From NCBI GenBank assembly GCA_947428835.1, contig CANENE010000004.1, positions 62,001 to 126,000 of the forward strand: a DNA stretch of 64,000 nucleotides, written 5' to 3'. This DNA is from an uncultured bacterium. GTDB lineage: Bacteria; Cyanobacteriota; Vampirovibrionia; Gastranaerophilales; Gastranaerophilaceae. The position numbers and the translations under genes were made by a program. Each line of letters begins with the position of its first letter. The stretch's first letter is position 1. Under the pieces are notes generated by a model, which saw only the letters and a program-made list of their open reading frames with translations, did not search any database and was not told where the DNA came from. Positions 3,650-46,685 of this stretch are shown in pieces.

Positions 3650-3709
3650 TGTAAACTTTTGTAAATAATTCAACTAAAACATTAAAGTTGAATTATTTTG
3701 GGTCGATAA
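3650..3709 (+). promoter_or_regulatory. HLR1 box plus sigma-28-type promoter, copy 1
   Basis: The 16-bp HLR1 (RpaB-type) box lies at 3650-3665, reading TTTACAAAAGTTTACA on the minus strand. After 17 bp comes the -35 TAAAGTTG (3683-3690), then 11 bp, then the -10 GTCGATAA (3702-3709). A leader inverted repeat follows at 3717-3739 (GGAAATGT, 7-nt loop, ACATGTCC, one mismatch), then the conserved CGATACACAC box. It serves a small gene that is now broken. Confidence 0.75.
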
Positions 3710-3777
3710 CTTATTTGGAAATGTTTAAGATACATGTCCTCGCGATACACACAAGTTTAGACCAGGAAGGAAAATTT

Positions 3778-3984
3778 ATGAAAAACAACGATGCAGGCCG
3801 TACAATTAAAATCATGTACAAAAATGTCGAGTACTAATTTAATTTGGAGAATTTGGTTTCCGTACTTAAATATTTAGGGGATAACAAAAAGATTGATGTA
3901 AATGACAAAGAAGGCATAATTGAAATACTTAAGCAGCATAAAATATACGATGAACTTTTTCTTCAAGAGATTTCAAAATTATAA
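3778..3984 (+). pseudogene. Small-protein family member, copy 1 (premature stop)
   Basis: First of five paralogues in the window; function unknown. It starts MKNNDAGRTIKI after AGGAAGGA and reads in one frame to 3984 except for TAA at 3835-3837 (codon 20), where the paralogues have Glu, Gln or Lys, so one base change explains the stop. Downstream the frame still encodes the family's C-terminal motif (IYDELFLQEISKL). Promoter and leader remain conserved, so the loss looks recent, or the leader RNA may still matter. A short N-terminal peptide could still be made. Confidence 0.75.
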
Positions 3985-3996
3985 AATAAATTATTT

Positions 3997-4025
3997 AATA
4001 GGTGCATGGTTTCCGTGCACCTATT
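3997..4025 (+). terminator. Stem-loop after copy 1
   Basis: A 13-bp stem (AATAGGTGCATGG against CCGTGCACCTATT, one G-T pair) closes a TTT loop. The T-tract after it is poor, so termination strength is uncertain. Confidence 0.5.
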
Positions 4026-4069
4026 TGCAGGCTGATTTATTATAACTTGAGCAAATATGATTAACATTT

Positions 4070-4129
4070 TGTAAACATTTGTAAAAAATTCAAATTTTAT
4101 CCTAAAGTTGAAAAATGTTCAGCCGATAA
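4070..4129 (+). promoter_or_regulatory. HLR1 box plus sigma-28-type promoter, copy 2
   Basis: HLR1 box at 4070-4085 (TTTACAAATGTTTACA on the minus strand), 17-bp gap, -35 TAAAGTTG at 4103-4110, 11-bp gap, -10 GCCGATAA at 4122-4129. The -35 differs from the enterobacterial sigma-28 consensus TAAAGTTT only in the last base, and the -10 is identical to it. A leader hairpin (GAAGTGT, loop, ACACTTT) and the ACGATACACAC box follow before the start codon at 4200. Confidence 0.8.
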
Positions 4130-4199
4130 TAATTTTAGAAGTGTTTAGTTTACACTTTCTAACGATACACACTAACAAGACAAAGGAAGGAAAAATTTT

Positions 4200-4436
4200 A
4201 TGGAAAACGATGCAAGCCGCAAAATTAAAATTACATTCAAAAGAGCAGAGTATGAGATTAGAACAAAAGAGCTGGTCAATGTCTTTAGAACTTTAAAAAG
4301 CGGCCAAAAACTTGAACTTCGAAAAAAGGAAAATATTTTAAAACTCTTCAAAGAATGTAAGTTATACGATGAAGATTTTCTTAAGGTAATGTCAAGTTTG
4401 CAAAAGAGAGCTAAAAAATCCAAGAAACAGTCTTGA
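4200..4436 (+). CDS. Small-protein family member, copy 2 (78 aa, unknown function)
   Basis: I do not recognise the function. The protein begins MENDASRKIKITFKRAEYEI, has a short beta-like start, two probable helices, the family motif LYDEDFLKVMSSL, and a lysine-rich tail (QKRAKKSKKQS). There is no signal peptide or membrane segment, so it is probably cytosolic; the basic tail could bind nucleic acid or an acidic partner, which is a guess. The ribosome site AAAGGAAGG precedes ATG. Its stop codon lies inside the -35 region of the downstream antisense RNA promoter. Homology with copies 1, 3, 4 and 5 shows it is a real gene. Confidence 0.8.
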   Translation: MENDASRKIKITFKRAEYEIRTKELVNVFRTLKSGQKLELRKKENILKLFKECKLYDEDFLKVMSSLQKRAKKSKKQS

Positions 4437-4588
4437 AAAATCAAGAAAGTGGTTTATAATAAAAATACAGGGGGAAGCCCCAAAGAAACATTACTTCTTC
4501 GAGGCTTCACTTCATACCCTATAAACAAATTAGAATAATCTTTAAAATTCTTTAAAATTGCTATTATGACCGTAATAGCAATTTTTAT
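4433..4588 (+). ncRNA. Candidate antisense antitoxin RNA, module A
   Basis: A sigma-70-type promoter TTGAAA (4433-4438), 16 bp, TATAAT (4455-4460) predicts a start near 4467. The RNA would end at a strong intrinsic terminator: stem AAAATTGCTATTA (4554-4566) against TAATAGCAATTTT (4573-4585), then a T-rich tract. The body holds a GAAGCC/GGCTTC pairing. The RNA is fully antisense to the hydrophobic peptide gene on the minus strand, and the terminator stem lies inside that coding region. Confidence 0.65.
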
Positions 4589-4603
4589 TGCTGATTTATT
4601 CAT
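4454..4603 (-). CDS. Small hydrophobic peptide, module A (49 codons, candidate type I toxin)
   Basis: The ATG at 4603 follows a near-perfect ribosome site AAAGGAGGTGAAATT. The peptide begins MNKSAIKIAITVIIAIL, a short hydrophobic membrane-like segment matching the module B peptide (IKIAIKAIIAIL). Module B stops at codon 25; here an altered frame after the hydrophobic part adds a 30-residue polar tail, so copy A may be a decayed or modified form. Its internal repeat forms the terminator of the opposing RNA. Type I toxins are typically short, hydrophobic and opposed by an antisense RNA; toxicity is inferred only. Confidence 0.55.
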   Translation of the reverse strand: MNKSAIKIAITVIIAILKNFKDYSNLFIGYEVKPRRSNVSLGLPPVFLL

Positions 4604-4609
4604 AATTTC

Positions 4610-4657
4610 ACCTCCTTTCCAACCAATTCTTCATAAATTGTCTGTGTTGGGAGAGGT
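4610..4657 (-). promoter_or_regulatory. Ribosome-site sequestering hairpin, module A leader
   Basis: In the peptide mRNA, CCAAC (4650-4646) pairs with GTTGG (4623-4619), and ACCTC (4657-4653) can pair with GAGGT of the Shine-Dalgarno (4614-4610). The equivalent stem in module B is CCTAGC/GCTAGG, so the pairing is kept while the bases change. Confidence 0.55.
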
Positions 4658-4681
4658 TAGGTATTTACCCTTTTTGGGTTT

Positions 4682-4711
4682 ATTATAACTTATGATAAAC
4701 TTTTTTGTAAA
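4682..4711 (-). promoter_or_regulatory. Probable promoter of the module A peptide mRNA
   Basis: On the minus strand, TTTACA (4711-4706), 18 bp, TATAAT (4687-4682). The -35 sits inside the HLR1 box of small-gene copy 3 (4706-4721), so a protein bound to that box should block this promoter. Confidence 0.45.
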
Positions 4712-4765
4712 CATTTGTAAAAAATTCAAATTTTATCCTAAAGTTGAAAAATGTTCAGCCGATAA
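4706..4765 (+). promoter_or_regulatory. HLR1 box plus sigma-28-type promoter, copy 3
   Basis: HLR1 at 4706-4721 (TTTACAAATGTTTACA on the minus strand), 17 bp, -35 TAAAGTTG at 4739-4746, 11 bp, -10 GCCGATAA at 4758-4765. The leader hairpin is GGAAGTGT (4773-4780), a 7-nt loop, ACATTTCC (4788-4795), with one G-T pair, followed by ACGATACACAC. Confidence 0.8.
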
Positions 4766-4833
4766 CTAATTTGGAAGTGTTTAAAATACATTTCCTGACG
4801 ATACACACCAAACTAGATAAGGAAAGGAAAATT

Positions 4834-5076
4834 ATGGAAAACGATGCAAGCCGAATGATTAAGATTAGATTTAGAAATTTGGATTATCAAATCAGAACAA
4901 AAGAACTAACCTTTTTGTTTAAAGCACTTGAAAGAATCAGAGAAGGCAGATGCGAAGCAAGAATTAAAAGCAACAGAGACATTCTTAATTTGATGGACAG
5001 GCACAATTTATATGATGAGTATTTTTTAAACAAGATGTCAAAGTTGAGAAAGAGAAATGCAAAATGTAAAAGTTAG
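4834..5076 (+). CDS. Small-protein family member, copy 3 (80 aa, unknown function)
   Basis: Closest to copy 2: MENDASRMIKIRFRNLDYQI at the start, RTKEL in the middle, LYDEYFLNKMSKL near the end, then a basic tail (RKRNAKCKS). I chose ATG 4834 after AAGGAAAGGAAA because it matches the other copies; a longer frame from 4744 would run through the promoter -10 and leader. The charge pattern and absence of a membrane segment suggest a cytosolic protein. It is followed directly by the second antisense RNA promoter, repeating the arrangement of copy 2 and showing tandem duplication of a unit of roughly 620 bp. Confidence 0.8.
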   Translation: MENDASRMIKIRFRNLDYQIRTKELTFLFKALERIREGRCEARIKSNRDILNLMDRHNLYDEYFLNKMSKLRKRNAKCKS

Positions 5077-5078
5077 TC

Positions 5079-5225
5079 TTGAAAAATCATGAAAATGATT
5101 TATAATAAGAATATAGGGGTAAGCTCCAAAGAAACAAGACTTCCTTGAGGCTTCACTTCACACCCTATAACAAAGAATAAATAAATGTTAAAATTGCTAT
5201 AATTGCCTTTATAGCAATTTTTATT
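5079..5225 (+). ncRNA. Candidate antisense antitoxin RNA, module B
   Basis: Promoter TTGAAA (5079-5084), 16 bp, TATAAT (5101-5106); predicted start near 5113, length about 110 nt. The terminator is AAAATTGCTATAA (5190-5202), 6-nt loop, TTATAGCAATTTT (5209-5221) with a T-rich tail. The RNA covers nearly the whole coding region of the 24-aa peptide on the other strand. Promoter, body and terminator are conserved with module A. Confidence 0.7.
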
Positions 5226-5239
5226 TGTTCATTTGTCAT
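5165..5239 (-). CDS. 24-aa hydrophobic peptide, module B (candidate type I toxin)
   Basis: ATG at 5239 with the ribosome site AAGGAGGCGAAT. The peptide begins MTNEQIKIAIKAIIAIL and ends TFIYSLL: a short polar head, one lysine in a hydrophobic helix, and no tail. Size, hydrophobicity, opposing RNA and locked ribosome site all match the general plan of type I toxins acting at the inner membrane, but I do not recognise it as a named family. It lies 3' of a broken HTH gene on the same strand, which could supply readthrough transcription; no clear promoter of its own was seen. Confidence 0.65.
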   Translation of the reverse strand: MTNEQIKIAIKAIIAILTFIYSLL

Positions 5240-5244
5240 ATTCG

Positions 5245-5289
5245 CCTCCTTCCTAGCCAATTCTTCACAATTGTCTGTGCTAGGGGAGG
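5245..5289 (-). promoter_or_regulatory. Ribosome-site sequestering hairpin, module B leader
   Basis: CCTAGC (5284-5279) pairs perfectly with GCTAGG (5257-5252); the stem continues after a 2-nt bulge with CCTCC (5289-5285) against GGAGG (5249-5245), which is the Shine-Dalgarno core. Translation would need the 5' arm to be opened or removed. Confidence 0.6.
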
Positions 5290-33982: not shown

Positions 33983-34729
33983 TTAACCTATACGTTGAAA
34001 CATATAACCAATACCTCTTGCAGTAAGGATTAATTCCGGATTAGCAGGGTCAGCTTCTAATTTTGAACGCAATCTTGAAATATGGACATCAACTACACGT
34101 GTATCAATTCTGTGATCCGGTGGATATGCCCAAACATGCTGTAAGATTTCGTTTCTGGAGTATGCAGTTCCGGAATTGTTAACAAGGAGTTCCAGTAAAC
34201 TAAATTCCATACCTGTAAGACGGATTCTTTCATTTTTACGATAAACTTGTCTTCTTGCAGTGTCAATTTTGATATTTCCAGTTGTAATAACATTTTTAGT
34301 CGTTTTTCCGGTCGGTACTACTACATCTTTGCTTACTGTTCTTCTAAGGACCGCTTTAACCCTTGCTTCAAGTTCTTTTGGGCTGAAAGGTTTAATTACA
34401 TAATCATCTGCACCAAGTTCAAGTCCGGTGATTCTTTCTGATACGTCGCCCAAGGCAGTAAGGATGATGATAGGAATATCTGAAACTCTTCTAATTTCTC
34501 TTGTCACCCCATATCCGTCCATTTTTGGCATCATAACATCCAAAATAACAATATCGGGGTTAATTTTATTAAAAAGTTCAACTGCTTCTTCGCCATCTTC
34601 TGCGGTAACTACGTTATAGCCTGCCATTTTAAGTCTTGTTTCAAGAATTCTTCTGATACTTGCTTCATCATCTACTACAAGAATTTTTTGTTTAGAATCA
34701 GCTTGTTCGCCTTGTACGTCTTTGGTCAT
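33983..34729 (-). CDS. rpaB: Response regulator RpaB
   Basis: OmpR-type regulator, 248 residues. Receiver domain with ILVVDDEASIRRILETRLKM, phosphorylated Asp in IVILDVMMPKMDGYG, and Lys in DYVIKPFSPKELEARVKAVL; winged helix with RLTGMEFSLLELLV and DTRVVDVHISRLRSKLEADP, ending LILTARGIGYMFQ. This matches RpaB (Ycf27), an essential cyanobacterial regulator that binds HLR1 boxes. In photosynthetic relatives it senses redox and light through Hik33/NblS; here its signal must be something else. The ribosome site AAGGAAGT precedes ATG. Five perfect HLR1 boxes occur elsewhere in the window. It abuts the M14 gene by 3 bp. Confidence 0.92.
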   Translation of the reverse strand: MTKDVQGEQADSKQKILVVDDEASIRRILETRLKMAGYNVVTAEDGEEAVELFNKINPDIVILDVMMPKMDGYGVTREIRRVSDIPIIILTALGDVSERITGLELGADDYVIKPFSPKELEARVKAVLRRTVSKDVVVPTGKTTKNVITTGNIKIDTARRQVYRKNERIRLTGMEFSLLELLVNNSGTAYSRNEILQHVWAYPPDHRIDTRVVDVHISRLRSKLEADPANPELILTARGIGYMFQRIG

Positions 34730-43102: not shown

Positions 43103-43309
43103 TTAAAGTTTTTGCATCCCAATTAAAAACTTTTCATCAAAAAGTTTATGCTTTTCCATAAGAGTACATATTTCTGCTTTACTTTCAGCTTTTACTTCTT
43201 TTTTGTCTTCTAATAGAGACAAAATAAACAGCAGTTTTGTGGTATTAATTTCATATTCAATGTTTTTAAAAATGATTTTAATTTTGTTTTCAGTATCGTT
43301 AAGTAACAT
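43103..43309 (-). CDS. Small-protein family member, copy 5 (68 aa, unknown function)
   Basis: Reads MLLNDTENKIKIIFKNIEYEI at the start, the KLLFILSLL helix, and LFDEKFLIGMQKL at the end, matching copies 1-4. It lacks the basic tail of copies 2 and 3. The ribosome site AAGGAAGAAGG precedes ATG. It is on the minus strand, convergent with the acyltransferase gene, and about 3 kb from copy 4. The promoter with HLR1 box is fully conserved. Confidence 0.8.
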   Translation of the reverse strand: MLLNDTENKIKIIFKNIEYEINTTKLLFILSLLEDKKEVKAESKAEICTLMEKHKLFDEKFLIGMQKL

Positions 43310-43366: not shown

Positions 43367-43426
43367 TTATCGGCCAAAAATATTTGAACTTTAATGTTTT
43401 ATTTGTATTGTTTACAAAAGTTTACA
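43367..43426 (-). promoter_or_regulatory. HLR1 box plus sigma-28-type promoter, copy 5
   Basis: Plus-strand TTTACAAAAGTTTACA at 43411-43426 is the HLR1 box. On the minus strand, after 17 bp comes the -35 TAAAGTTC (43393-43386), 11 bp, then -10 GCCGATAA (43374-43367). The leader hairpin seen in copies 1-4 is absent here, but a TCGCACAC-like remnant of the CGATACACAC box remains. Confidence 0.8.
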
Positions 43427-46335: not shown

Positions 46336-46395
46336 TGTAAACTTTTGTAAATAATTCAACTTTTACCCTAAAGTTGAAAAATTTTGTACCGATAA
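46336..46395 (+). promoter_or_regulatory. HLR1 box plus sigma-28-type promoter, copy 4
   Basis: HLR1 at 46336-46351 (TTTACAAAAGTTTACA on the minus strand), 17 bp, -35 TAAAGTTG (46369-46376), 11 bp, -10 ACCGATAA (46388-46395). The leader hairpin GGAAGTGT (46403-46410), 7-nt loop, ACACTTTC (46418-46425) pairs in full with one G-T. Confidence 0.8.
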
Positions 46396-46469
46396 TTATT
46401 TTGGAAGTGTTTGAACTACACTTTCAAGGTGTACACACATTACTAACAAACAAGGGAAGGAAATTTTTT

Positions 46470-46685
46470 ATGAAAGATTCTGATGATTCAAGAGTACGAC
46501 GAAAAATTAAAATTATTTTCAAAAATTCATCATACAAAGTTGGTGAAAAGAAGTTGTTGGCTTTGCTTAAAACTATGAAAAAATGCAAAGTAAGAAAAAT
46601 CAGAGATGAAGATCATGCAATTGAACTGCTTAAAAAGTTTGATATGTATGATGAGACTATTGTTGAGGGGTTATCTAAAATGTGA
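46470..46685 (+). CDS. Small-protein family member, copy 4 (71 aa, unknown function)
   Basis: Starts MKDSDDSRVRRKIKIIFKNS after AAGGGAAGGAAA and ends MYDETIVEGLSKM, so the family core is kept with a basic stretch (KKCKVRKIR) in the middle. A frame from 46374 would run through the promoter and leader and is not used. It lies between the broken TolC and RTX genes and has its own promoter and terminator, so it appears to have survived their decay. Confidence 0.8.
   Translation: MKDSDDSRVRRKIKIIFKNSSYKVGEKKLLALLKTMKKCKVRKIRDEDHAIELLKKFDMYDETIVEGLSKM

Follow-up and report, generated by a model that had tools for sequence, protein, structure and literature searches.

HLR1 boxes at a fixed distance from sigma-28-type promoters suggest a regulon under joint RpaB and FliA control in Gastranaerophilales

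A promoter architecture in which an HLR1 box lies at a fixed distance upstream of a sigma-28-type promoter recurs across the Gastranaerophilales, and we consider it probable that these are dual-control promoters, at which the response regulator RpaB, bound upstream, activates the FliA-RNA polymerase. In cyanobacteria, RpaB runs photosynthesis genes. The boxes, their spacing and conservation, the genes of both regulators, and the absence of flagellin and canonical FlhA from the genome studied here were observed directly, while RpaB binding, activation, FliA dependence and the transcription starts are inferred. In the mechanism that we propose, a FliA-type sigma-28 RNA polymerase would recognise TAAAGTTT-N11-GCCGATAA, and an RpaB dimer, placed on the HLR1 direct repeat with its centre at about -57.5, or a full helical turn farther from the start, would recruit this polymerase as an activator from the same helix face. 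The architecture would define a Gastranaerophilales regulon of non-flagellin, often small unknown proteins; in the genome studied here, a family of 68-80 aa proteins that expanded in this lineage may have acquired it, and it appears to persist after flagellum loss. A more far-reaching version, in which RpaB is the dedicated upstream activator of the flagellar sigma for an order-wide, non-flagellar and possibly type III-exported protein set that is retained beyond flagellum loss, and in which the "light" regulator mainly serves this purpose in non-photosynthetic relatives of cyanobacteria, is tentative, and we lean slightly against it.

The window, by which we mean the whole 64,000-nucleotide stretch of DNA analysed, contains five paralogous genes, each preceded by a perfect HLR1 box, 17 bp, TAAAGTT(G/C), 11 bp and a -10 element resembling GCCGATAA. 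A preliminary description had reported these five composites, and their places, both gaps and the -35 sequence were all confirmed, with a -10 match of 7 or 8 of 8 bases. The HLR1 boxes are located at 3650-3665 (copy 1, KTTACAWWNNKTTACA on the minus strand), 4070-4085 (copy 2), 4706-4721 (copy 3) and 46336-46351 (copy 4), all on the minus strand, and at 43411-43426 on the plus strand (copy 5, whose gene is on the minus strand). They read along the plus strand as TGTAAA-N4-TGTAAA at copies 1-4 and are oriented opposite to transcription in all five copies. The sigma-28-type promoters all score 14-15 of 16 against a -35 of TAAAGTTT, an 11-bp gap and a -10 of GCCGATAA. They are TAAAGTTG-N11-GTCGATAA at 3683-3709 (plus strand, 14/16), TAAAGTTG-N11-GCCGATAA at both 4103-4129 and 4739-4765 (plus strand, 15/16 each), TAAAGTTG-N11-ACCGATAA at 46369-46395 (plus strand, 14/16) and TAAAGTTC-N11-GCCGATAA at 43367-43393 (minus strand, 15/16); the -10 element agrees with GCCGATAA at 7 of 8 bases before the genes starting at 3778 and 46470, and at all 8 before those starting at 4200, 4834 and 43309. 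Among the five copies the boxes are better conserved than the spacers, with a pairwise identity of 100% for the HLR1 half-sites and the -35 element, 71% for the spacers and 53% for the leader. A tandem duplication, with spacings of 420 and 636 bp, accounts for copies 1-3, which therefore are not independent of each other. In addition, an inverted repeat close to the start, of the type GGAAGTGT...ACA(C/T)TTTCC, was observed in the 5' leaders of copies 1-4 (3717-3740, 4135-4163, 4773-4796 and 46397-46431) and not in copy 5. It may form a hairpin in the RNA or serve as an operator, and a hairpin in the 5'-UTR had no significance when compared with shuffled sequences.

The genome of the window (referred to as G000 in coordinates) comprises 1.8 Mb in 24 contigs and is 97.7% complete. 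Its only exact composites of HLR1 and sigma-28 promoter are the five in the window, and HLR1 alone was found 22 times, compared with once for the reversed pattern. We scored 16 HLR1 sites outside the window, of which four are followed at exactly N17 by a sequence with a sigma-28 score of at least 11/16; none of the 16 reached this score when the gap was set to any of the other lengths between 0 and 59, or when the opposite side of the box was scored. These four additional N17 composites precede genes for unrelated proteins. When up to three mismatches were allowed, the composite was found 12 times in this genome, against one match for the reversed control. We also observed a second class of HLR1 sites, in which the box is followed at a constant distance by a TACTTTATATATATGTAAG/GTGAG block that resembles a promoter of a non-sigma-28 kind (sites L072, L073, L075 and L087, at C1:88194, C2:55122, C3:86837 and C7:81653).

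Comparison with the relatives of this bacterium, which the preliminary description had suggested, revealed that the composite recurs at a fixed spacing throughout the order. The search string given there, TAAAG-N14-CGATAA, was miscounted and returned zero matches; the correct gap is N16. With at most three mismatches, the composite is present in 18 of the 21 genomes of the order, and a search of 117 genomes of the order for HLR1-N{3,33}-TAAAGTTT, with no constraint on the -10 element, gave 317 matches compared with a single match for the reversed control. Among 150 of these matches that were listed, and that are dominated by a few motif-rich genera, the gap is 17 bp in 118, 16 bp in five and 27-28 bp in 19; the last peak lies one helical turn further upstream, as is expected of a protein bound to one face of the DNA. 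Across 84,980 species genomes, an exact scan gave at least 115 stretches with the composite, a lower bound that leaves occurrence outside the order possible. The 80 exact sites listed are all from metagenome-assembled genomes, from gut or rumen where the title states a source, and the informative titles among them name Gastranaerophilales, Melainabacteria or Cyanobacteria, with the one exception of a rumen bin labelled Acinetobacter. When 115 exact sites from other species were compared, the bases that the search had left unconstrained matched the sigma-28 consensus, with T, T and T after TAAAG in 89%, 96% and 91%, and G and C before CGATA in 91% and 88%. No match to the composite was found in 2.9 million viral contigs. 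The assignment of the window to Gastranaerophilales is itself an inference, drawn from these matches and from its RpaB.

The genes downstream of the composite belong to recurrent families of unknown proteins that are found across genomes. Among 105 such genes (from loci L172-L286), the product is a 51-aa "MLKKI...GVEFILRGAKKRR" protein in 23 cases, a member of a linked cluster of "MGMAASQARFL.."-type and EF-hand-like long proteins in 21, a 137-aa "MAETFNLN.." protein in 10, a 50-aa "MRIENEML.." protein in a further 10 and a 156-aa "MSNFTVNG.." protein in nine. Representatives of these families had no Pfam match, apart from one with weak EF-hand and DUF matches, and many of the downstream genes inspected have no close following gene. 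A Sec-like N-terminus was recognised in only 3% of the products by a crude hydrophobicity test, and there is no direct evidence of export. None of the downstream products resembles flagellin or a recognised chemotaxis protein. In two genomes (G017 and G016, loci L290 and L291), the flagellin genes themselves are preceded by a sigma-28 box without HLR1, so FliA promoters appear to be of two kinds, with and without an RpaB box. The joint regulon of RpaB and a motility-type sigma factor that had been inferred from the five copies is therefore supported at the level of sequence, by the genes of both regulators and by the order-wide motif at fixed spacing, and it extends much more widely than the small-protein family to which it had been assigned.

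Genes for both presumed regulators are present in the genome of the window. The rpaB gene is located within the window itself (33983-34729, minus strand) and encodes a response regulator that passes the NCBIfam RpaB equivalog NF045944 with 359 bits (cut-off 330); its cyanobacterial orthologue binds HLR1. The absence of a sigma-28 gene would have refuted the initial proposal, and a FliA/WhiG-family gene was found at about G000:C2:168394-169218 (TIGR02479, 233 bits, cut-off 189.6), with an open reading frame and intact sigma domains. It adjoins the gene for triosephosphate isomerase, and no recognised flagellar gene is among the neighbours scanned. OmpR-family proteins generally bind direct repeats of about 10 bp, and this genome has four OmpR-type C-terminal domains that score above the Pfam cut-off, so that another of its OmpR-family regulators, for example an RpaA-like one, could bind HLR1-like repeats with the promoter logic otherwise unchanged. 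We regard this as unlikely, though it deserves to be kept in mind: the repeat is the RpaB consensus KTTACAWWNNKTTACAW itself, as seen in the 22 sites against one for the reversed control, and, of the two OmpR-type regulators tested, only the protein encoded in the window clears the RpaB equivalog cut-off of 330, the other reaching 207 bits.

That RpaB would act here as an activator is inferred from position. At the E. coli aer promoter, transcription starts 6 bp after the -10 octamer (PMC2859248), and numbering by analogy, with the start itself unmapped, places HLR1 at about -50 to -65, with its centre at -57.5, or at about -68 in the class with N27-28. In cyanobacteria, RpaB bound at about -45 to -66 activates, while a site that overlaps the start brings about repression (PMC13421787), and the earlier suggestion that the position fits activation thus holds for the inferred numbering. 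In addition, CRP activates the sigma-28 promoters aer and trg, and at aer a site on the opposite face abolishes activation (PMC2859248). Given this precedent and a position within the activating range, RpaB most likely recruits the FliA polymerase from upstream. As a counterpoint, CRP acts best at E. coli sigma-28 promoters from -49.5, which is not the position seen here (PMC2859248). RpaB might also repress these promoters, or gate them in both directions, activating when bound and phosphorylated and being neutral when only bound. Repression from sites overlapping the start is established for cyanobacterial RpaB, and its DNA binding and phosphorylation are separable (PMC13421787); the boxes studied here, however, all precede the -35 element with a constant helical phase (N17 or N27-28), a regularity that steric repression would not call for, and we hold repression or gating to be improbable, to about the same degree as a different OmpR-family regulator.

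A still less probable explanation is that the TGTAAA repeats are AT-rich, UP-element-like or bent DNA contacted by the alpha subunits of the sigma-28 polymerase. Such upstream contacts by alpha subunits are known from sigma-28 promoters (PMC2859248), and A-tracts appear between HLR1 and the -35 element in the profile of the 80 sites listed. The enriched element, however, is the strict HLR1 and not mere A/T, as the single reversed match against 317 indicates; the flagellin promoters inspected, which have a sigma-28 box without HLR1, indicate that sigma-28 itself needs no such element; and HLR1 is also paired with the second, non-sigma-28 promoter-like block. Finally, a chance resemblance of duplicated intergenic DNA, carried along with the gene family, to both motifs can be practically disregarded: the five copies are indeed paralogues, three of them side by side, but in many genomes the same composite precedes gene families that are unrelated, the boxes are retained between copies where the spacers have diverged, and the 317-to-1 control and the fixed spacing exclude an origin of the motif by chance or by duplication.

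The dual-control regulon that we favour appears to have outlived the flagellum in the genome of the window, in which flagellin and canonical FlhA are absent while FliA is kept. No flagellin was found in this genome, compared with its presence in 20 of 20 relatives searched, and the canonical FlhA that is found in most relatives is missing as well; flagellum loss is known in some Gastranaerophilales (PMC4040986). The FliA of this genome shows 72% identity to its counterparts in flagellated congeners, among which the identity is about 85%. The sole full-length FHIPEP protein encoded in the genome is a second, divergent FlhA that adjoins a FliF/FliH-like set. The FlhA of this divergent FliF/FliH/FlhA-like export system (G000:C8:20635-27226, L170) is shared by most, if not all, of 21 genomes, and nearly all of these also have a third FlhA homologue, a truncated C-terminal one (G000:C2:148645-150096, L171).

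The five small-protein genes of the window are located at 3778-3984, 4200-4436 (78 aa), 4834-5076 (80 aa) and 46470-46685 (71 aa) on the plus strand and at 43103-43309 (68 aa) on the minus strand. All five copies that had been described are present, but only four are intact, as copy 1 carries an in-frame TAA at codon 20 (3835-3837) and is pseudogene-like. A divergent sixth member (G000:C6:18211-18390) has no HLR1 box within 300 bases upstream. Within the genus, 10 of 13 genomes encode the family, and a search of seven other genera gave no member. Consistent with the initial view of these products as unknown proteins of 68-80 aa, searches of Pfam, PHROG and PDB revealed no known relatives: there is no Pfam family common to the members (only scattered weak matches), no PDB relative and no convincing PHROG match, and none of these searches supported an identity as FlgM or another known flagellar or chemotaxis protein, as chaperones or as a known DNA-binding family. 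AlphaFold models of the family propose a beta-hairpin followed by three helices, with a mean pLDDT of 58 that is too weak for use. Nor was there support for the idea that the promoter or the family came from a phage or a mobile element, as the viral contigs contained neither the composite nor relatives of the proteins.

Homologues of the family in sister species lack HLR1 and the sigma-28 promoter upstream, which makes the family a recent recruit to the regulon; we infer from these sequence comparisons that it expanded in the lineage of the window and may then have come under RpaB and FliA. Among 20 homologue matches (L017-L040; 19 in sister species and one the divergent copy in the genome of the window), 15 have an (A/G)GCGAAC(C/T) element, mostly followed by TTTT, at 110-190 bases upstream of the matched stretch, where about 1.4 would be expected; it is an unidentified regulatory or recombination element. 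Separately, two duplicated short hydrophobic open reading frames with good ribosome sites are located on the minus strand of the window at 4454-4603 and 5165-5260 (MNKSAIKIAITVIIAILKNF... and MTNEQIKIAIKAIIAILTFIYSLL), opposed by a TTGAAA-TATAAT-like promoter on the plus strand; this arrangement is reminiscent of a type I toxin-antitoxin module present in duplicate.

Homologues of RpaA, RpaB and NblS have been reported in Melainabacteria, possibly with another function (PMC3787301, PMC4040986), and have been known there since 2013 (PMC3787301). The accessible parts of these reports concern the same regulator in the same group and give no targets, HLR1 sites or sigma partner; our results provide a concrete target set and a promoter logic for RpaB, and suggest a role for a leftover "light" regulator in dark, non-photosynthetic gut relatives of cyanobacteria. 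In addition, they describe an inferred FliA regulon that survives flagellum loss, and a clean motif with which members of an otherwise unannotated regulon of gut bacteria can be found. Within the library searched, we found no published description of HLR1 sites in Gastranaerophilales or Melainabacteria and no published coupling of RpaB to a motility sigma factor.

Three known systems can be compared with the one proposed here. The RpaB/HLR1 regulon of photosynthetic cyanobacteria shares the HLR1 consensus, a close RpaB orthologue and a box within the activating range of -45 to -66 (PMC13421787, PMC11633204, PMC9241938); it differs in that the host studied here is inferred to be non-photosynthetic, the promoter is of the sigma-28 rather than the housekeeping type, the targets are unknown proteins instead of photosystem or high-light genes, and HLR1 is opposite to transcription in all five copies. 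The sigma-28 (FliA) regulons of flagella and chemotaxis share TAAAGTTT-N11-GCCGATAA and a FliA-family sigma gene, whereas the products here are neither flagellin nor any recognised chemotaxis protein, the genome of the window lacks flagellin and canonical FlhA, and HLR1 is added at a fixed spacing. Similarly, the CRP-activated aer and trg of E. coli combine a sigma-28 promoter with an upstream regulator in helical phase (PMC2859248), as would be the case here if the inferred activation by RpaB holds; CRP, however, is centred at -49.5 and acts at two promoters only (PMC2859248), whereas an OmpR-family box at about -57.5 is found here across an order, which would tie a response regulator to an alternative sigma factor through an invariant spacing. 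The parts are known, and their combination and its order-wide conservation appear to be new.
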